From positions 1 through 21,974 of IMG/VR virus record IMGVR_UViG_3300021599_000255: DNA of 21,974 bases; one strand, written 5' to 3'. This DNA comes from a virus. Of this stretch, positions 189 through 15,395 are shown piece after piece (within the stretch, counting starts at the first letter, position 1; each line of letters starts with the position of its first letter). A program made the position numbers and the translations under genes. A model generated the notes under the pieces. That model worked only from the letters and a program-made list of their open reading frames with translations. It had not been told where the DNA came from and searched no databases.

Positions 189-319
189 AAGAGCTGTTCT
201 TATAATCTACCGAGGAGAGAATGCCCCCCACTTCAATGTGGGGGAGCTCTTCTCAACTCTACAGAGTGTTGAATTGGGGTGTCTCCCAATTGCAGGTCCC
301 TTCGGTGGGAATCACTCTG
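189..319 (+). ncRNA. Candidate structured RNA element between capsid gene and next gene
   Basis: The 171-base gap after the first gene can form several compatible helices. They are AAGAGCT 189-195 with AGCTCTT 245-251; CCCCCAC 225-231 with GTGGGGG 238-244 (loop TTCAAT), which abuts the previous helix; CAGAGTG 262-268 with CACTCTG 313-319; and, inside the last, AATTGGG 272-278 with CCCAATT 285-291 and TCCC 297-300 with GGGA 307-310. The last three form a three-way junction. The stretch is G+C-rich compared with the flanks. No T-run follows the strong hairpin at 225-244, so a plain intrinsic terminator does not fit. I see no hammerhead core motif. It could be an mRNA-stability, processing or attenuation element; function is unknown. 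Confidence 0.4.
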
Positions 320-347
320 CAAACAAAACCAAATAAATAAACTACAT

Positions 348-1316
348 ATGGGTAAGTTAGGTAAAATCTCAACACTTAAGAAAGAGTATAACAACTCTCA
401 ACTTCAAACAATGCAAGGTGGTCTTTCACTTAAAGGCTTAACACGTATTCCTGGTACTGGTGTATTCAAGTATCCTTATAAAGAACTTGATGGTCAGTAT
501 AGGACAGGACTTGATCCAAACGCTGCTTACATTCGCAGAATCTCTGATCCTCTTGAGAGAGAAATGGAGATTGAGCGTGTAACAGCTCTAAGAGAAAGAT
601 TACAAGTTGCTCTTGGTGATGTTAACTTAGGTCCTCGTTCTAGTTTCTGGAACTATGGATTATCAACATCTACAGATGATACATTGCATGTACAGCCTGT
701 AAAATTACTTGATGGTGATAACTTTTTCGATCTTTCTATTCCTTTTCAGGAATTAGCATTCTCTTGGTTACGTGTTCATCCAACAATTGCAAGCTCTTAT
801 CAGGCTTGGGAGCGTGGTGAATATCCTGCTGATACACAATTCTATGTAGCAGACGAAGAGATTGAAAATGCTGTTTTGTTCAAGAAGAAACAAATGATTA
901 ACAAAGCTATTGTTAAGTTTGACAGCATGACTCCTGAAAGAAAAAGAAAAGTGGCACGTCTGTTGGGATTACCTGTAACTGATGATACTAAAGAGGAAGC
1001 AGTTTACAACCTTGTAGATAATGTCCTCAAACAAACCGAGTTTAAAAACGGTAAGTATCAGGGACTTAATCCTGTTGAAGTGTTCACACGCTTTGCAGAC
1101 ATGAAGGATAACTTACTCCATATCAAAGACTTAGTGAAACAAGCTCTTACACATTCTATATACAGATCTAAACCTAATGGTAAGGTGTATGAGGGTGAGT
1201 TTGAAGTAGCTAAAGATGAAGATGATTTAATTAAAATGCTTGCTGACGATGATAATCAGGACATGCTTCTGACTCTCGAAGGTAAGTTGAAAACTAAGAA
1301 ATTAGCTGCAGTATGA
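348..1316 (+). CDS. Conserved crAss-like virion-block protein, 322 aa, function unknown
   Basis: The start at ATG 348 is preferred over an upstream GTG at 279. The extra 23 codons would overlap the folded intergenic element, while ATG 348 sits behind the A-rich leader (aaataaataaac) typical of this phage. The protein starts MGKLGKISTLKKEY. It has an N-terminal basic segment, a central region with FDLSIPFQELAFSWLRVHP (about residues 127-145), and a largely helical second half. That half includes the RKVARLLGLPVTDD segment (about 200-213) and an acidic stretch near 289-303. I recognise the overall pattern as one next to the capsid gene in crAss-like and related Bacteroidota phages, but I know no established function. 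It is probably a head or head-tail junction protein, or an assembly factor. Its stop overlaps the next start (ATGA), implying translational coupling. Confidence 0.8.
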   Translation: MGKLGKISTLKKEYNNSQLQTMQGGLSLKGLTRIPGTGVFKYPYKELDGQYRTGLDPNAAYIRRISDPLEREMEIERVTALRERLQVALGDVNLGPRSSFWNYGLSTSTDDTLHVQPVKLLDGDNFFDLSIPFQELAFSWLRVHPTIASSYQAWERGEYPADTQFYVADEEIENAVLFKKKQMINKAIVKFDSMTPERKRKVARLLGLPVTDDTKEEAVYNLVDNVLKQTEFKNGKYQGLNPVEVFTRFADMKDNLLHIKDLVKQALTHSIYRSKPNGKVYEGEFEVAKDEDDLIKMLADDDNQDMLLTLEGKLKTKKLAAV

Positions 1317-3243: not shown

Positions 3244-3270
3244 TAGTAGGATAAACCTAGATTATAAACC

Positions 3271-3319
3271 TAAGCCAGAGGTGAGAGGATTCAAACTCAA
3301 TCCTCTGGCTTATTTATTT
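3271..3319 (+). terminator. Hairpin terminator candidate between 3243 and 3328
   Basis: The sequence TAAGCCAGAGG (3271-3281) pairs with CCTCTGGCTTA (3302-3312), giving 11 bp. Inside, TGAG (3282-3285) can pair with CTCA (3296-3299) and extend the stem past a two-base bulge. It is followed by TTTATTTA rather than an unbroken T-run. An alternative inner hairpin GAGGATT 3285-3291 with AATCCTC 3299-3305 excludes the long one. It is either an intrinsic terminator of moderate strength or an mRNA end/stability structure. Confidence 0.65.
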
Positions 3320-3327
3320 AAAACAAC

Positions 3328-5420: not shown

Positions 5421-6068
5421 ATGCAATTCACTCCTCCACAATATTGTAGCCCCTGTCAAGATCCCTGCCAATCAAAGGTTGTGGGGTCTGATCAAGTTGG
5501 TTATACTGGACCAAATCTTCCTTGTACTAATGTACAGACATGTGATTCGTTGAGTGTGGCTCTTCAAAAGATTGATGAGCAAATCTGTGATTTAAAAAGT
5601 ACTGTTATTTCTTTACAGAACCAAATTAATGCTTTAACTACTACAACAAGTACATCTTCTACTACTACTACTAGCACAACGACTGTAACTCCTCCTACAA
5701 CAACCACCACAACAACATTAGCAGAGAGCTATCCCGTAACTGTTTATTTAGCTGTTAATGGATTAGTTCCATCGCCTGTTACAATATGGTATGACACTGG
5801 AAGTGGGTGGCAAACTTGGAATATTTCTCCAGGTAATTATCCAAGTTATATACCATCAACAACTTTCACTATAGCTGCTGGAGGCACATTTATATTTGGT
5901 ATTAGAAACTTTTCAAATCAAGACTTGTTGTTTGGTCAAGGACAAGTGTCAGGAGATTTCACTTCTAAATGTGGTATATCAAATCCAGTATCACAAGTAA
6001 TTAATGGTGTAACTAGTATATATGCAAATCTACAAATACAAGATAATGCATATGTACTTTGTCCATAA
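5421..6068 (+). CDS. Fibre-like protein with shared anchor and Thr-rich linker, 215 aa
   Basis: Three parts are visible. Residues 1-72 hold a Cys-rich start (YCSPCQDPCQ), the motif VGYTGPNLPCTNVQTCDSLS (27-46) and a short helix (LQKIDEQICDLKSTVISLQN). Residues 73-99 are an almost pure Thr/Ser/Pro linker. Residues 100-215 are a beta-rich domain (SYPVTVYLAVNGLVPSPVT and following) with two cysteines. The motif YTG-x2-[LV]P-x3-[IV]QT-x-DSLS matches the collar-domain protein upstream, so both probably dock on the same virion site. The C-terminal domain resembles no family I can name and is plausibly a glycan- or receptor-binding head. It is the last gene before a strong terminator. Confidence 0.75.
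   Translation: MQFTPPQYCSPCQDPCQSKVVGSDQVGYTGPNLPCTNVQTCDSLSVALQKIDEQICDLKSTVISLQNQINALTTTTSTSSTTTTSTTTVTPPTTTTTTTLAESYPVTVYLAVNGLVPSPVTIWYDTGSGWQTWNISPGNYPSYIPSTTFTIAAGGTFIFGIRNFSNQDLLFGQGQVSGDFTSKCGISNPVSQVINGVTSIYANLQIQDNAYVLCP
5637..5717 (+). repeat. Thr/Ser/Pro linker tract of the 215-aa fibre protein
   Basis: Twenty-seven codons, almost all Thr, Ser or Pro, join the anchor and head domains. ACA and ACT codons predominate. It probably forms an extended flexible or glycosylated linker. Confidence 0.85.
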
Positions 6069-6103: not shown

Positions 6104-6135
6104 CTCCTGGGGGTTTTTACCCCTGGGAGTTTTTT
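6104..6135 (+). terminator. Strong intrinsic terminator
   Basis: CTCCTGGGGGT (6104-6114) pairs with ACCCCTGGGAG (6119-6129) over 11 positions, with two tandem G-T wobbles in the middle and a TTTT loop. Six T residues follow at 6130-6135. It closes the 3328-6068 unit and sits before a promoter. Confidence 0.9.
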
Positions 6136-6168: not shown

Positions 6169-6183
6169 GAAAGGTTAAAATAA

Positions 6184-6216
6184 TTTGGAAAATATCAAAA
6201 CTCTTTCGTATCTTTA
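6184..6216 (+). promoter_or_regulatory. Bacteroidota-type promoter for the 6245 unit
   Basis: TTTG at 6184-6187 (in TTTGGAAAAT) and TATCTTTA at 6209-6216 are 21 bases apart. This fits the Bacteroidota -33 TTTG / -7 TAnnTTTG pattern except for the last base. Transcription would begin near 6222, giving a leader of about 20 bases. It lies just after the terminator and before the first gene of the next unit. The same TTGGAAAAT box occurs in the promoter near 21387. Confidence 0.7.
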
Positions 6217-6244
6217 CTGCAATTTTAACTAAATTAAATCGTAA

Positions 6245-7495
6245 ATGCCTGAAAATCAATCCCTTCTGCACCAGCTGGAGCAGATGCTTCACTGGAAAAA
6301 GAGCAAAAAGTTCTATGCAGAGAAACTAAACATTACAGAGGATGAGGTTGATTCGTTGATAAGAGAGTTAAGGAATTCAGAAAGTATAAGAAATGAGGCA
6401 GAAACTGCCAGCTATATTGGAGAACTAGAAGATGCAATTGTAAGGTTTTCCGAGGATGTGGAAAAGGGAACAGGTGAGATAGTCTTTAATAGTAAAGAAG
6501 AGATCAAAGATTTAGACGATTTAATTGAGAAGTGTAAGATTGATACAGACAAGTGGGAAATAACTAAATACGTACAAAACTACTGGGGGAATGCTGACCA
6601 GCCTCATTATCAAGTGAAGGCTTGGCTTGGTAAAAAGAAAGGAGAACAGGTATTCCAAGACTCCTTTATAGAGTTCCTCAGTTCATACACTCCTGCTTCT
6701 CAGGAGATAATGTCTCCAAAACTACATCCAAGCAAGTCTAATGCTGCTCTTGTTATTAACAAACAGGATGCGCATTACAATAAGATTGATGTAGATGGAG
6801 ATAACAACATTAAAGAAAGATTTGCTAGAATGGCTTACAGGACTGAAACAATCCTTGCACAAGCTGCTTTAGCAAATAACTTAGATAAGATTGTATACAT
6901 TATTGGATCAGATGAATTCAATAGTGAGTTTACAGGAACTACAACCAAAGGCACTCCACAACAGAATATTGGAGGTTACCATGAGTCATTCAAATCAATA
7001 TGCGATCATGAGGTTCTTATGATTTCATTGCTACTCAACTACACAAGTAATGTGGATGTGATATATGTAGCTGGTAATCACGATGAATATGTAGGATGGC
7101 ACATGATAAATTGGCTGCAAACCTACTTTAGATATATCCCTGGAGTGACATTTGATTGTTCTCCTAAGTATAGGAAGTACGTAAGTTATGGAGTTACAGC
7201 TATGATGTTTAATCATGGTGATGCTATCAAACCTGCTAAACTTGCTGGTATATTCCCAATGGAATATAAAGATAATTGGTCTGACCATGAAGTGTTTTAC
7301 ATATTCACAGGTGATAAGCACCATGAATTGAGTCAAGACTTTAACGGAATTAAATTTTACCAAATCCCTGCATTCTCAAATGCAAAGAGTGGGTGGGATG
7401 AGAAGAATGGATACACGTGCGCGAGAGGTGAGGTAACTGCGTTTCTCATTGATGAGCTCTATGGGATGACGAACATATTCAAACAATATTTATAA
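6245..7495 (+). CDS. Calcineurin-like metallophosphoesterase with N-terminal HTH-like region, 416 aa
   Basis: Residues about 15-45 (KKSKKFYAEKLNITEDEVDS) look like a winged helix or helix-turn-helix. A helical middle section with WEITKYVQNYWG (104-115) follows. From about 165 the metallophosphoesterase core appears with its metal-binding motifs in order: QDAHYN (D175, H177), IGSDEF (D223), AGNHDE (N278, H279), NHGD (H324) and GDKHH (H359/H360). The second motif is GSD rather than the usual GD. The set looks complete, so the enzyme is probably active on phosphodiesters, perhaps DNA ends or nucleotides. The fused DNA-binding-like region and large size recall phage SbcD-like enzymes. Its place inside the structural block and at the head of its own promoter is notable. 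The stop overlaps the next ATG (TAATG). Confidence 0.85.
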   Translation: MPENQSLLHQLEQMLHWKKSKKFYAEKLNITEDEVDSLIRELRNSESIRNEAETASYIGELEDAIVRFSEDVEKGTGEIVFNSKEEIKDLDDLIEKCKIDTDKWEITKYVQNYWGNADQPHYQVKAWLGKKKGEQVFQDSFIEFLSSYTPASQEIMSPKLHPSKSNAALVINKQDAHYNKIDVDGDNNIKERFARMAYRTETILAQAALANNLDKIVYIIGSDEFNSEFTGTTTKGTPQQNIGGYHESFKSICDHEVLMISLLLNYTSNVDVIYVAGNHDEYVGWHMINWLQTYFRYIPGVTFDCSPKYRKYVSYGVTAMMFNHGDAIKPAKLAGIFPMEYKDNWSDHEVFYIFTGDKHHELSQDFNGIKFYQIPAFSNAKSGWDEKNGYTCARGEVTAFLIDELYGMTNIFKQYL

Positions 7496-9686: not shown

Positions 9687-12600
9687 ATGGCTGAACAAGA
9701 ACAAGGTAACGTTAGACAAGAGTATAATAATGCCACCACTGGTCTTAATATGGACCAGACAGTTAATCAGATTCCGAAAGGTAAGCTGACATATGCATTG
9801 AATGCTGTTGTTGAAAACTTTGATGCTAATTCTGTAAACTATCAGAATGAGCCTGGGAATGAGCCTTGCGTTTCATTCCCTTCTGGCTTTGTATTGGTTG
9901 GTACACATTTCATCCAGGAGAGAAACAAACATATATTCTTCATCACTAACCCTGAAACAGGTGGTAGTCAGATTGGATATATGGAGAATAACGATTGTAT
10001 ATACCGTGTACTTGTAAATGCTCCTTGTCTTAACTTTAATGTTAACTATCCCATCCTCAAGGCAGCACACAAGATAACCAACTGCACTACAGAAATCTAC
10101 TGGACAGATGGTTACAATCCTAGAAGATACTTAGATATTGATGACATTCCAAAGATATTAAAGTCTGGTACTCCTTTCTGTAATCCAGAGTATACAGATG
10201 ATGTAGACTGTAATCAGTTAAAGCTACAGCCTAATTTTAAGATTCCTCAATTAGAAGTGGTTGATGTTACTAGCACAGGTAATCTGATTGCTGGTACATA
10301 CCAGTTTGCTATCCAATACTCTGATCCTCAGGGTAATCCTTACACTTCCTACTACTCTGTTACCAATCCCACTCCTATTGCTGATGAGTTCATAACATCT
10401 GTGAACTTTAACTATCCTGTTGGTAAATCCATCATCCTTAATATAAGCAACTTAGAGGATACAGGACTATATCAGTATTTCAACTTAGCAGTGATTAGAA
10501 CTGTTAATGCTATCACTTCTGTTGAACTTGTAGGCACTTATTATATTGATAATGTCCAGAAGCAAATCACATACACTGGTCAGAACGTAACACAAATACG
10601 TCTAACTGTTGATGATATATTTGAGAAATTCCCTTACTATGATATTGCACAAGACTTAACAAATGTGCAGGACATTCTCGTTTGGGATAACTTAACATCA
10701 ATTGATCGTATTAACTACCAAAGCATTGCTAATCAAATCAATCTGTTATGGGAGAGCTGGAGAATACCAGCTAATGAAAACTATGCAGATGAGTTGAACG
10801 CAACCAATCTCAGAGGATATTTGAGAGATGAGGTTTATGCTTTTGAGATAGTATTTTTGCTTAGAAATGGTAAGCAAACTGATGGTTTCCATATTCCTGG
10901 TAGAATTAAAGGCCCTTCAGAAACATTACAACCAGACGTACCAGACACTAACCCAGACTTTATAGGCAATCCTGATTACGCATCTGGAGGAATAGGATAT
11001 AGTCCTTATTGGAAAATCTATAACACAGGATCTGTAATTGGTACAAGTCCTGGTTACTCTCCTGCTCCTGAATACAAAGGTCCTTATCAATATGGCCAGT
11101 TTGGTTATTGGGAATCAACAGACACCTATCCATGTAATGTAGATGTATGGGGTGATCTTGCTGGTCAACCTATTAGACACCATAAGTTTCCTGACATTAA
11201 TATCAGTCCTGCGTATGAGTCTAAGATATTCTTAGGCCCTAATACAATGGTTCAGGGTAATGATGCTGTATTTCCTATTGGTGTGCAGATAGATGTACAA
11301 CAAGTTAGTGCGCTAATTCAAGCATCTAATTTAACACAAGAACAAAAGGATGAGATTGTAGCATTTAAGATTATTCGTGCAGACCGTGGTACTAATAAGT
11401 CTATTGTAGCAAAGGGCATTCTTAGAAATGTTAATACATACGAAAGAGAGAAGCAAACCTACTTCTATCCTAACTATCCTTATAATGATCTTAACCAAGA
11501 TCCGTTCCTTAATTCTACAAATAATGCTTGGAGTCAGATATGTGATGGTTATAATGTAATAATTACTGTATTAGGTCCTGATCCAAATGGTGGTCCTGAC
11601 TTTGCTGAGGTACAATACACAGATTGTAACACTAACAAACAGGGCACACAAAAGTATTATTCTATAGGTACATTCCCACTTTGCTCTACCAGCAAACCTG
11701 TTATACTTGCTCCTGCAGAAGGAAAAACTGGACTTTCTACATATGAAGAGTGGACAGTAACAATATGTCCTCCTACATTCCTAAAAGCTGGAGGAAGAAT
11801 TGAGTGGGATGATATATATGAAGGAATATCTCAAACATGGGTTAATGGTTGGCCAAGTGTAGACACTTTAACTCTTTCTGTAGTTCCTGGAACAGGTGGA
11901 CCTGTAGCAATAGAAAATCCTGAAAATATTTGCATCACTGGACCTGTACTTGTCACTGGAAAAAATTGTAAGATTCAGAATCCACAACCTGGATTTACAG
12001 AAAAATACAGACAGATATTTAACTCTCCTGAAACATCTTTTGGACAACCATTCCTAGGTGATATTCTGAAGCTTGAGAGTGTAATGTTTGGTGGAGGTAA
12101 GGCTCACTTCGTTGAGGTGAGAAATAATGCTAAGTATAGACTTTTAACTAAAGAAGCTCAAGAAGATGCTCTTAATAGTTCTAATGAGTTAGGTAAGCTC
12201 ACTTCGCCATTTAGTGCATCAGCAATGTTTGCTGCATATCAAGCGTATTTAACCATATACGTAAATGGTATTACTAGAAAGAACTATGCTTATTCTTTCA
12301 ACTCTGTGGCTGATTATAACTATGGAGTGGGAGTTCCTGATAATCAGGGAATTAAACAACGTACTCTTGATATTGCTAGATATTTAATACCTGGTGTACA
12401 GAATGTTGGTGATATACATAACATCAACAACTTCCAAAGAGAATCATCTGTTTATTTGAGAACTGATATAGGTAAACAAGCTCTTCCGTTCCCAGATCAG
12501 AGTCCTAACATGTTATCTGGAATTGTTCCTATTGTTACAGATAAATCAAGATTCACTATATCAGAGGCAGGAAATTGTGATGTTCCTGCTAAGGAAGAAG

Positions 12601-14774
12601 ATATATCTGTAGTGTCTTATTATGCTTCTCTTAAGAATGTGTTTGTAAATCAATATGGACAAATCTATTCTTATGACACTGTAGATACTGGATTCCAAGC
12701 ATTTGTGGATGCTGACACTCCTCAGATACAAACTGTATTTGGTGGTGATACATTTATCAGCAGATTTACATTTAAGACCAAGCTTCCATTCTTCATTGAT
12801 AATCGTGTTAATGCTCCAGATGATAGTGACATATTCTATGATGAGATAGGTAACATAGCTTATCCGAAATACTGGCATTCAGCTCGTTCTATTTTAAGTA
12901 ACTACACAAGTGGTGGTGGTTTGCTCACTAACATTATTTCCTACAAAGCTCACGAGTTTGATTGTCCAAATAGTCAATTACCTGCACCTCCAGCTGAAAA
13001 TCCTAATAGAACTTTCTATGATGGATATTTCTACATGTTTGCTTATGGTATTCCCAACTTCTATTGTGAAAGTTCTTATAATGTAGATTTACGTCAGGCG
13101 TTCAATAATAGAGAAGGAGACTACTGGCCTCATGTAAGTACAGGTATTCCTGATGACTGGGTACAAGAAAGCTTTGTTCCTATTGCTCAGGATAACACTT
13201 ATTACTATAATGTTACATTCTCTAAACAGAACAGGGAGAACACCTTCACTCACCTGCCTATAGATTGGGACAAACCTTGTTACACCTACTATCCATTCAG
13301 GGCTATTTATTCTGATGCTCAGAACATAGATGCTGATAACAGGGTCAATAGCTGGTTAATCTACAGATCAATATCTTATTTTGACTTCCCTCAGAACTAT
13401 GGAGACTTAATCTCTTTAGATGGTATTCAGAACAGAGCTGTGTTAGCTAGATTTGAGAACAAGACGTTGATGTACAACAACTTGTTGACAATCGATACTA
13501 GCAATCCTCAAGCTGCTTATGTTGGTAATCCTATGCTCTTCAGAGGAGCTCCTCCAATTGATTTTGCTGAAACTGATTTGGGGTATGTAGGAACCCAGCA
13601 CAAGATGCTTCTGAAGATTCCACAAGGACAGGTAACTATTGATGCTAAACGTGGTCAAGTTTTCTTAATCACTGGTACACAAGCTGTGGATCTATCAGGA
13701 TTTGGTTCAGGACTTAATAGGTTCTTTACAGACCATCTAGCATTTGAAATCTTACGTTACTTCCCAGATGTACCTGTAGACAACCATTATAACGGTATTG
13801 GTTTACATGGTGTATATGATAGCAAGTATGATAGAGTATTAATAACTAAGCTTGACTACATCCCTAAGAGCAGTGATGTTAAATGGGATGCTGTAAATAG
13901 AGAGTTCTATGTAGAAGAGGTGTATCCTCAAAATGGTCCTACAACAACTAGCACCACTACACTAGCTGGTACTACAACAAGTACCACTACTAATCCAGGA
14001 ACTTTCACTACCACTACAACTATTCGTCCTATAGTTACACGTAAGGTGGTGTATGTTACAGATCTAGAATACTTCTGTAATAAGAGCTGGACTGTGTCAT
14101 TTAACTTCAACACTAAGAGCTGGATAAGTTTCCACACCTATTTCCCTAACTGGTACATTGGTGAGAACAACTTCTTCTACTCTGGTATTAATGGATGTTG
14201 CGAAGATCTTGATGCTATTGTTGGTACACTTGGACCTATTCCAACTACCACCACTACATCTAGCACATCTACAACATCTACAAGTTCTACAACAACTACC
14301 ACTACAACAAAGAGTTGTAACTTAGAAGGATCTGCTGTAGAGAAAAGTTGTAATCTTGGAGGATCAGCAATAGTGATTGGACCAACTCCACCTCCTCCTT
14401 GTACAAGGCCTTCAAGTTTAATAAATGATGTATTCTTTACAGGATACGATATTATATCTCCACCATCTAATGTTGTTTCTACAGGAAGCTTAATAGCTGC
14501 ATGTAATGCTGTGGTATATTTGAATGCAAACATTATAGATGGAGTTTATGTAAACGTTATACCTACATTCCTAACCATCCAATATCAAGGACTTTATGTT
14601 GGATCTAAGGTGTTTGTAGCAAATGGTACAAATAATTGTGCAACCATCCCTGACGGCTGGTACTTTACAGGAGCTTCTCAGTCAGTGAACACAGTGTTCC
14701 AAGTGGTGGGTGGACTAATTGTATTTATTACTAACTGTAGTACAACTACCACAACAACAACTTCTGCACCTTAA
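9687..14774 (+). CDS. Muzzle-like large tail protein with Thr-rich C-terminal modules, 1695 aa
   Basis: The first 1400 or so residues form one long region starting MAEQEQGNVRQEYNNATTG. It contains GLNMDQTVNQIPKGKLTYA and THFIQERNKHIFFITNPE, and a later segment EIYWTDGYNPRRYLDID (near 134-150). I recognise these as highly conserved in the large tail ('muzzle' or stabilization-type) protein of crAss-like phages. The C-terminal 280 residues are modular: a Thr linker (1419-1445); a small domain with CNKSWTVSFNFNTKSWISF and YIGENNFFYSGING; a second Thr/Ser linker (1520-1541); a doubled KSCNL segment; a further beta domain; and a terminal Thr tract. The family's usual C-terminal module seems to be on the gene at 15406 instead. 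The next gene lies in the same frame, four sense codons after the TAA. Expected location: the distal part of the short tail. Confidence 0.8.
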   Translation: MAEQEQGNVRQEYNNATTGLNMDQTVNQIPKGKLTYALNAVVENFDANSVNYQNEPGNEPCVSFPSGFVLVGTHFIQERNKHIFFITNPETGGSQIGYMENNDCIYRVLVNAPCLNFNVNYPILKAAHKITNCTTEIYWTDGYNPRRYLDIDDIPKILKSGTPFCNPEYTDDVDCNQLKLQPNFKIPQLEVVDVTSTGNLIAGTYQFAIQYSDPQGNPYTSYYSVTNPTPIADEFITSVNFNYPVGKSIILNISNLEDTGLYQYFNLAVIRTVNAITSVELVGTYYIDNVQKQITYTGQNVTQIRLTVDDIFEKFPYYDIAQDLTNVQDILVWDNLTSIDRINYQSIANQINLLWESWRIPANENYADELNATNLRGYLRDEVYAFEIVFLLRNGKQTDGFHIPGRIKGPSETLQPDVPDTNPDFIGNPDYASGGIGYSPYWKIYNTGSVIGTSPGYSPAPEYKGPYQYGQFGYWESTDTYPCNVDVWGDLAGQPIRHHKFPDINISPAYESKIFLGPNTMVQGNDAVFPIGVQIDVQQVSALIQASNLTQEQKDEIVAFKIIRADRGTNKSIVAKGILRNVNTYEREKQTYFYPNYPYNDLNQDPFLNSTNNAWSQICDGYNVIITVLGPDPNGGPDFAEVQYTDCNTNKQGTQKYYSIGTFPLCSTSKPVILAPAEGKTGLSTYEEWTVTICPPTFLKAGGRIEWDDIYEGISQTWVNGWPSVDTLTLSVVPGTGGPVAIENPENICITGPVLVTGKNCKIQNPQPGFTEKYRQIFNSPETSFGQPFLGDILKLESVMFGGGKAHFVEVRNNAKYRLLTKEAQEDALNSSNELGKLTSPFSASAMFAAYQAYLTIYVNGITRKNYAYSFNSVADYNYGVGVPDNQGIKQRTLDIARYLIPGVQNVGDIHNINNFQRESSVYLRTDIGKQALPFPDQSPNMLSGIVPIVTDKSRFTISEAGNCDVPAKEEDISVVSYYASLKNVFVNQYGQIYSYDTVDTGFQAFVDADTPQIQTVFGGDTFISRFTFKTKLPFFIDNRVNAPDDSDIFYDEIGNIAYPKYWHSARSILSNYTSGGGLLTNIISYKAHEFDCPNSQLPAPPAENPNRTFYDGYFYMFAYGIPNFYCESSYNVDLRQAFNNREGDYWPHVSTGIPDDWVQESFVPIAQDNTYYYNVTFSKQNRENTFTHLPIDWDKPCYTYYPFRAIYSDAQNIDADNRVNSWLIYRSISYFDFPQNYGDLISLDGIQNRAVLARFENKTLMYNNLLTIDTSNPQAAYVGNPMLFRGAPPIDFAETDLGYVGTQHKMLLKIPQGQVTIDAKRGQVFLITGTQAVDLSGFGSGLNRFFTDHLAFEILRYFPDVPVDNHYNGIGLHGVYDSKYDRVLITKLDYIPKSSDVKWDAVNREFYVEEVYPQNGPTTTSTTTLAGTTTSTTTNPGTFTTTTTIRPIVTRKVVYVTDLEYFCNKSWTVSFNFNTKSWISFHTYFPNWYIGENNFFYSGINGCCEDLDAIVGTLGPIPTTTTTSSTSTTSTSSTTTTTTTKSCNLEGSAVEKSCNLGGSAIVIGPTPPPPCTRPSSLINDVFFTGYDIISPPSNVVSTGSLIAACNAVVYLNANIIDGVYVNVIPTFLTIQYQGLYVGSKVFVANGTNNCATIPDGWYFTGASQSVNTVFQVVGGLIVFITNCSTTTTTTTSAP
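13941..14021 (+). repeat. First Thr-rich linker tract of the 1695-aa protein
   Basis: Twenty-seven codons encoding mostly Thr with Ser, Leu-Ala-Gly and Asn-Pro-Gly interruptions (residues 1419-1445). It separates the main muzzle-like body from the first small C-terminal domain. Confidence 0.85.
14244..14309 (+). repeat. Second Thr/Ser-rich linker tract of the 1695-aa protein
   Basis: Twenty-two codons, all Thr or Ser (residues 1520-1541), encoded by mixed ACN, TCN and AGC codons. It runs straight into the doubled KSCNL segment. Confidence 0.85.
14310..14375 (+). repeat. Imperfect 33-base tandem duplication (KSCNLxGSA)
   Basis: Two 11-codon units lie head to tail at 14310-14342 (KSCNLEGSAVE) and 14343-14375 (KSCNLGGSAIV). 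The DNA copies differ at several mostly synonymous sites, so the duplication is not brand new. Confidence 0.85.
14739..14771 (+). repeat. C-terminal Thr tract of the 1695-aa protein
   Basis: Eleven codons reading STTTTTTTSAP end the protein immediately before TAA, with no domain after them. The next ATG lies in the same frame after four sense codons. Confidence 0.85.
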
Positions 14775-14786
14775 CACAATATAACA

Positions 14787-15395
14787 ATGACAGTATTAAT
14801 AACATTAACAACAGCTGGAACGGATACAGGTCCTTTTGATCTCTACTCAAATGTAGATGGTTATGTTTCAGCATTTGAAACAGGAGTGTCTAAAGCAGCT
14901 CTTGTAGCTGGTTATTCTTCTTCACTTGTGCCTAATGGTACAACAATCATAAGAGTAAAGTCTACAGGCACTTGTTTAAACTATATAGACATTATAGTAG
15001 TTACAACAACTACAACCACTACTACAATTGTACCACCACCTACAACAACTACTACAACAACTATTTTTGGAGATACATTCTTTATCACAAACGGTAGTAC
15101 AAATAGTACGATAAATAACATTACAGTTTCAGCAGCTTCTTTCTACTTCCTCAATACAGGATCATTGCCTGTAGGACCTAGTCAAACTGCTTCAGGTACT
15201 CATTCTGCATTAGTTTCAGCTAATATTGATGTAGATGTTACTCAGTCTCTTGGTAATGCATGTCTTACACTTTATGTAAATACAATAGCTGTTGCACAGC
15301 AGAATGTAGGTTCAACAGGGGTTTACACCTTCACTGGAATAACCTTTGGAACAACTGATTTAGTAGAGTTTGAGATTGTAGATGGAACTTGTTAA
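14787..15395 (+). CDS. Two-domain beta protein with Thr linker, probable tail surface protein, 202 aa
   Basis: Residues 1-71 form a beta domain beginning MTVLITLTTAGTDTGPFDLY. A GPF, a TGVSK-like ETGVSKAAL and an STGTC near its end match the N-terminal domain of the next gene. Residues 73-92 are a Thr/Ile/Pro linker. Residues 93-202 form a second, Asn/Thr/Val-rich beta domain ending in Cys. It has no catalytic motif or signal peptide. The gene is in the same frame as the 1695-aa gene, after a TAA and four sense codons (CAC AAT ATA ACA), with its own ATG behind an A/T-rich leader. It is probably an accessory surface domain on the muzzle; whether separate or sometimes fused by readthrough is not decidable here. 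Confidence 0.75.
   Translation: MTVLITLTTAGTDTGPFDLYSNVDGYVSAFETGVSKAALVAGYSSSLVPNGTTIIRVKSTGTCLNYIDIIVVTTTTTTTTIVPPPTTTTTTTIFGDTFFITNGSTNSTINNITVSAASFYFLNTGSLPVGPSQTASGTHSALVSANIDVDVTQSLGNACLTLYVNTIAVAQQNVGSTGVYTFTGITFGTTDLVEFEIVDGTC
15003..15062 (+). repeat. Thr-rich linker tract of the 202-aa protein
   Basis: Twenty codons (eight Thr, then IVPPP, then seven Thr) separate the two beta domains. ACA and ACT dominate. Confidence 0.85.

Follow-up and report, generated by a model that had tools for sequence, protein, structure and literature searches.

A conserved structured RNA follows the major capsid protein gene in a group of environmental crAss-like phages

In a crAss-like phage, the gap directly behind the gene for the major capsid protein was found to hold an RNA which lies on the mRNA strand, is conserved and covarying among relatives, occurs as a single copy at one fixed place, is non-coding and lacks the T-run of a terminator. 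Tentatively, and with slightly less than even confidence, we favor the view that it is an intercistronic punctuation element, which would uncouple the abundant capsid mRNA from the downstream mRNA by processing and end protection. The window, that is, the whole stretch of DNA analyzed, comprises positions 1 to 21,974 of the virus record IMGVR_UViG_3300021599_000255, a record of 21,974 bases.

The window opens inside the capsid gene, whose 5' part lies outside it and whose 3' end occupies positions 3 to 176 of the plus strand, with a TAA stop codon at 174 to 176 that is followed in this phage by a second TAA. An initial annotation had assumed a capsid gene of a crAss-like phage just upstream of the structured region, and a profile search confirmed this: the full-length homologue in the related locus L076 matches Pfam Crass_capsid (PF23898) with an E value of 1.3e-27 as well as a PHROG major head protein (E 2.6e-32), and PF23898 scored above its curated cut-off in 4 of 4 long contigs. 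By its Crass major capsid protein, the phage carrying the element is thus crAss-like. The next gene in the operon, referred to here as gene 2 (348 to 1316, plus strand), encodes a head-region protein of 322 amino acids without assigned function (phrog_16383), and the order of the capsid gene and gene 2 was the same across all relatives examined. The crassvirus structural atlas lists gp32 as the capsid protein and gp34 as a tail-ring protein (PMC10172136), and the gene order in csAssE-Sib is capsid, hypothetical, ring. By analogy of gene order, gene 2 would be the counterpart of gp33, and gene 3 would encode a ring protein.

Three modules, all on the plus strand, fill the 171 bases between the two genes (177 to 347): a hairpin at the capsid stop codon (H1), a long hairpin (H2) that contains an internal loop, and a compact three-way junction (3WJ). 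H1 spans 176 to 203, with pairs 176-181/198-203 and 184-188/193-197. H2 (212 to 254) consists of a lower stem (212-219/247-254), an internal loop (220-224/245-246) and an upper stem (225-231/238-244). The 3WJ (261 to 320) is built from P1 (262-268/313-319), P2 (269-271/293-295 plus 272-278/285-291, with G292 bulged) and P3 (297-300/307-310), the loop of P3 being UUCRRU at 301 to 306. An A-rich, unstructured leader, in which inserts are tolerated, then leads to the ATG of gene 2 (321 to 347, plus strand). The fold of 172 to 351 had a z score of -5.8 against dinucleotide shuffles, with 0 of 200 shuffles as good, whereas 189 to 319 alone reached -3.7; for 177 to 347, z was -6.4 against shuffles. 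A coding function of the gap was rejected, since both the gap length and the distance from the 3WJ to the ATG vary out of register with three.

Compensatory changes among relatives support this structure. In alignment A6 (84 distinct rows, 36 base pairs), which was fitted to the model and so favors the structure somewhat, 93.4% of cells were paired and 29 of the 36 pairs showed changes on both sides (22.8 in shuffles; sd 1.9). Cells changed on both sides numbered 526 versus 166 in shuffles, and the covariation score was 0.476, compared to 0.170 for shuffled alignments and at most 0.144 for shifted structures; kinship among the sequences inflates such counts. The structure nevertheless keeps its support despite fit bias and kinship, because the margin is large and because a structure-blind ranking by mutual information agrees, the element's own pairs making up 8 of the top 9 and 22 of the top 55. 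Its compensatory changes go beyond both the shuffled and the shifted controls, and the element is a conserved structured RNA; compensatory changes, the absence of which had been named in the initial annotation as speaking against the RNA, are present.

Individual helices behaved consistently with this. In H2, 95% of cells were paired in both stems, and 12 of 15 pairs showed both-side changes. P3 alternates between CCC/GGG, GAGG/CCUC, GAAC/GUUC and others around one loop, P2 is replaced wholesale between close relatives, and in lower P2 the pair G271-C293 becomes A-U in 7 rows, always next to the never-varying G292. At paired positions outside lower P2, G-U was found in 118 cells versus A-C in 35. 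This tolerance of G-U, and the much lower tolerance of A-C, indicate the plus strand, which is that of the capsid mRNA, as the functional molecule, and we regard it as practically certain that the element functions as a real RNA on the mRNA strand.

Comparison with relatives also revised the helices themselves. All five complementary stretches in the initial annotation are present in the window, and relatives bear out four of them (upper H2, P1, upper P2 and P3), each kept and covarying, as well as the assembly of the last three into a three-way junction. The fifth, 189-195/245-251, has to be abandoned: among 72 distinct sequences, the window is the only one with a 7-of-7 match, and the best match averaged 5.14 versus 4.94 in shuffled sequences. 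Its 3' strand pairs instead with 212-219 to form the lower H2 stem, which is conserved and covarying. This stem, H1, and lower P2 with its bulged G292 had all been missing from the initial annotation. A switch between AAGAG/TTCTT pairing and the discarded helix, also suggested there, finds no support in the H1 slot, which differs among relatives in sequence, in hairpin number and in whether a hairpin is present at all.

Within the 3WJ, conservation is concentrated in a few letters. Among the unpaired bases, G292 and C320 are kept in 84 of 84 rows, and U301, U302, C303 and R304 occur together in 83 of 84, the exception being L044 with GUUA. The base after UUCR is A in 60 of 84 rows, U306 is kept in 78 of 84 and A261 in 78 of 83. 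The first four pairs of P1 (CAGA/UCUG) are nearly invariant, the bases after P1 are mostly C-A-A-A, and the rest of the arms drifts with compensation. This pattern is the signature of a domain recognized by its shape and a few letters, and the invariance of the P1 base, the bulged G and the UUCR loop suggests a specific reader of the 3WJ, be it a nuclease, a phage protein or an RNA tertiary contact. As an RNA family with good support, whose helices turn over rapidly while the loops stay fixed, the element should be useful for the study of RNA tertiary contacts and of phage RNA-protein recognition. Two other readings of the loop were rejected. A pseudoknot between the UUC of the P3 loop and purine-rich 271-273, an idea derived from L044, would use bases that belong to P2, cannot form in several relatives (L075, L142), and is absent from the mutual-information ranking. 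A closed UUCG tetraloop is not the general form, as the closing pair may be either C-G or G-C without a change of the loop.

Relatives were collected by scanning viral contigs with the gene-2 protein, which yielded 447 related stretches, 80 of them taken as loci; two more scans with divergent members added others. Nearly all have a gap of about 160 to 200 bases with the same modules, a 3WJ of 56 to 62 bases and, in most cases, 22 to 30 bases between the 3WJ and the ATG. A covariance model of H2 and the 3WJ (R1), built from 72 sequences, recognized the window as well as 77 of 77 related loci. It likewise matched all 47 loci outside model building, with scores from 115 down to 26 bits, 44 at an E value of 5e-7 or better and three at about 1e-3. 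The total of 124 matches in 124 related loci, along with the covariation, bears out the original proposal of a compact multi-helix RNA directly after the capsid gene. When a pattern of the 3WJ only was scanned over 2.9 million viral contigs, with no protein used, all 68 hits lay ahead of gene 2: 65 within 40 bases, two at 48 (with an extra hairpin) and one at 353 (with an inserted stretch). The capsid gene was directly upstream in 67 of these 68, and the remaining contig starts too close to the hit. R1 found one strong site in each of 15 long contigs (78 to 115 kb), its weak antisense matches at the same place reflecting helix symmetry, and a 3WJ-only model (R2) found one strong site in each of 18 long contigs, with the next best at E 0.009 or worse.

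No convincing match to the element was obtained in the gut crAss phages tested, in the clade of Leptolyngbya phage Lbo-JY46 or in Flavobacterium phage FpV4, nor did annotated phage genomes give a match when searched by DNA and by gene-2 protein. The distance from the capsid gene to the next gene is about 25 bases in gut crAss002, cr107_1 and Carjivirus communis and 13 to 86 bases in the Lbo-JY46 clade. From the R2 results in the gut crAss phages and the Lbo-JY46 clade, the element appears to be limited to one clade of environmental crAss-like phages, and since relatives with capsid gaps of 13 to 86 bases, gut crAss included, do without it, a crAss-type late operon does not depend on it. One contig in a Tissierellales genome bin (L235, 3586 to 3695), with an 89% identical capsid protein, carries a short, divergent 3WJ with a different 7-bp P1 and the same UUCGAU loop (R2 E 1.3e-4); it is probably a phage contig placed in that bin.

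A search against Rfam 15, which covers known self-cleaving ribozymes, riboswitches and tRNA, was one of the checks proposed in the initial annotation and returned no family at gathering score in the window and none up to an E value of 5 in 100 to 420. In 12 relatives, Rfam found only a separate tRNA, and a search of the literature available to the analysis yielded no account of such an RNA in crAss-like phages. Comparative genomics has previously yielded 104 candidate structured RNAs from bacteria, archaea and metagenomes (PMC2864571). Like such orphan motifs, the present element combines covarying structure, a non-coding gap and one gene context with a function not assigned; unlike them, it is phage-specific, confined to one operon position and without a match in Rfam 15. 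Cis-acting structured RNA in phage mRNA is thus known as a kind, whereas the family, the architecture and the operon position appear new.

The modules differ in how freely they change. H1 is the least conserved: most relatives carry one or two unrelated hairpins there, and a few carry none. The 72 distinct segments in this slot had a mean z of -3.1, and 89% of them fell below -1; little or no structure was seen in L155, L157, L166, L174, L202 and L218. The same H1 and H2 are combined with different 3WJs in L065 versus L066 and in L206 versus L217, which suggests module exchange by recombination. Another conserved motif, GCUUACCRUAAGAWCAGC, in which changing stems flank the loop ACCRUAAGAWC, was observed in L061, L071 (2820 to 2858), L076, L126, L179, L180, L188, L193, L204 and L227. 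It replaces H1 in some relatives and stands after the 3WJ in L180 and L204; in the contigs searched it occurs only in the gap between the capsid gene and gene 2, and it may be another recognition element.

Several relatives have acquired inserts on the 3' side of the 3WJ. An open reading frame lies between the 3WJ and gene 2 in L070, L074, L126, L156 and L160, which places gene 2 356 to 494 bases away, with the RNA still behind the capsid gene. The one in L074 encodes an HNH endonuclease by profile, and the other four were judged by visible sequence similarity; the inserted gene carries the same leader. In L229 (2393 to 2467) and also in L227, a tRNA-Met gene directly follows the 3WJ, between the capsid gene and gene 2. 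tRNAs are signals for RNA processing. Extra hairpins occupy the same insertion spot in L180, L204 and L289. Since these inserts move gene 2 away, neither a fixed spacing nor gene 2 itself is needed just downstream, and the position kept by the RNA despite them suggests that the element is tied to the capsid mRNA rather than to the start of gene 2. The HNH-type frames, which come with a copy of the leader, sit just 3' of the RNA, either directly at the ATGGGTAAG of gene 2 or close to it, and a short frame in L222 resembles the deletion scar of such an insertion.

If the element acts by processing and end protection, gene 2 would be transcribed through it on the same late transcript, since no promoter-like site was found on the plus strand of the gap by a sigma-70 scan, a type of scan that does not cover Bacteroidota promoters. 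The site at which the transcript is cut, or its decay stopped, would lie in the short single-stranded linkers, that between H2 and the 3WJ being the most likely. H1 and H2 would protect the capsid mRNA at its 3' end against 3'-to-5' exonucleases, and the 3WJ would cap the 5' end of the downstream mRNA, so that one operon would yield far more capsid protein than tail-ring and head-completion proteins. Of the functions initially considered, namely self-cleavage, stability and attenuation, stability or attenuation is the most plausible class. The mechanism is a candidate answer to how crAss-like phages obtain hundreds of capsid proteins and a dozen of each tail ring from one gene cluster; this candidate is precise and testable, the element being small and single-copy with named invariant bases. 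Against it, the P1 base and the UUCR loop are conserved beyond the needs of plain end protection.

These invariant features would fit a protein operator, in our judgment possible though unlikely, at which a structural protein of the phage, whether the capsid protein, the product of gene 2 or some other, binds the 3WJ to regulate gene 2 translation or mRNA decay, comparable to T4 gp43 and gp32 on their own leaders. The hairpin operator of T4 gene 43 and the RNase E cleavage of gene 32 exemplify operators and processing sites in phage mRNA (PMC3014915), and the present RNA resembles them as a structured phage mRNA element that may set protein dose post-transcriptionally; it differs in its three tandem modules after a capsid gene and its three-way junction. 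The invariant unpaired bases and P1 base, the small domain of nearly fixed size and the 22 to 30 bases to the ATG in most relatives all speak for an operator, but the candidate partner protein is still hypothetical, and spacing to gene 2 is lost where genes, a tRNA or hairpins are inserted, a variability which weakens the case for a simple operator of gene 2 translation.

Rather doubtful, in our estimation, is that the 3WJ represents a new recognition or catalytic RNA, for instance through tRNA-elbow-like docking of UUCR and the bulged G or as a ribozyme, which would cut crAss-like late transcripts between capsid and downstream head genes and thereby set stoichiometry. Its specific versions are each quite improbable. 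A self-cleaving ribozyme cutting the late transcript, with the 3WJ as putative catalytic domain, would agree with the compact junction, the few invariant unpaired bases (G292, UUCR, C320) and the position between cistrons. However, the invariant core bases are few compared to those of known small ribozymes, and Rfam, which includes known ribozymes, gave no match even at E values up to 5. A tRNA-like mimic, putatively cleaved by RNase P or a comparable enzyme of the host, is one concrete form of the processing model, and we give it just as low a probability. P1, with its 7 bp, would be the acceptor stem, P3 with its short UUCR(A/G) loop the T-arm, 0 to 2 bases from the P1 3' strand, and the conserved bulged G292 the elbow G; UUCR in 83 of 84 rows, A as the next base in 60 of 84 and the true tRNA in the neighboring slot of L229 fit this picture. 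The loop nevertheless has 6 rather than 7 bases, CCA is lacking, neither ARAGORN nor the Rfam tRNA model recognizes the element, and a G292-C303 contact has no statistical support because both bases hardly vary.

We consider it very unlikely that the element is a transcription attenuator or pause site which lowers downstream expression without processing. It shares with intrinsic terminators stable hairpins 3' of a stop codon, the hairpins here being very stable, close to that codon and ahead of lower-dose genes. Yet no intrinsic terminator, defined as a G+C-rich hairpin followed by a T-run, was found on the plus strand in 1 to 1000, and no helix of the element is followed by a T-run, in agreement with the initial view that it is not a plain terminator. 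This absence is informative because a terminator-like hairpin with T6 exists elsewhere in the window, at 6104 to 6135, after the gene at 5421 to 6068. Moreover, plain hairpins would not need the conserved loop and bulge seen here, and the conserved P1 base and the three-way junction also set the element apart from intrinsic terminators. A chance fold or a DNA-level hairpin (protein site or cruciform), to which the symmetrical inverted repeats and the well-folding reverse strand might point, is contradicted by the compensatory changes in 29 of 36 pairs and the excess of G-U over A-C, and its probability is negligible.

Further features were observed elsewhere in the window. Past the hairpin at 6104 to 6135, at about 6182 to 6220, a promoter-like sequence of the Bacteroidota type (TTTG, about 20 bases, TATCTTTA) was recognized by eye ahead of an exonuclease-like gene at 6245. 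A strong hairpin, CCAGAGG...CCTCTGG, with an AT-rich tail lies between two genes at 3244 to 3327 (z -4.8). Finally, several proteins encoded at 5421 to 6068 and 9687 to 15395 contain long Thr/Ser-rich stretches (TTTTTSTT), for which repetitive DNA codes.
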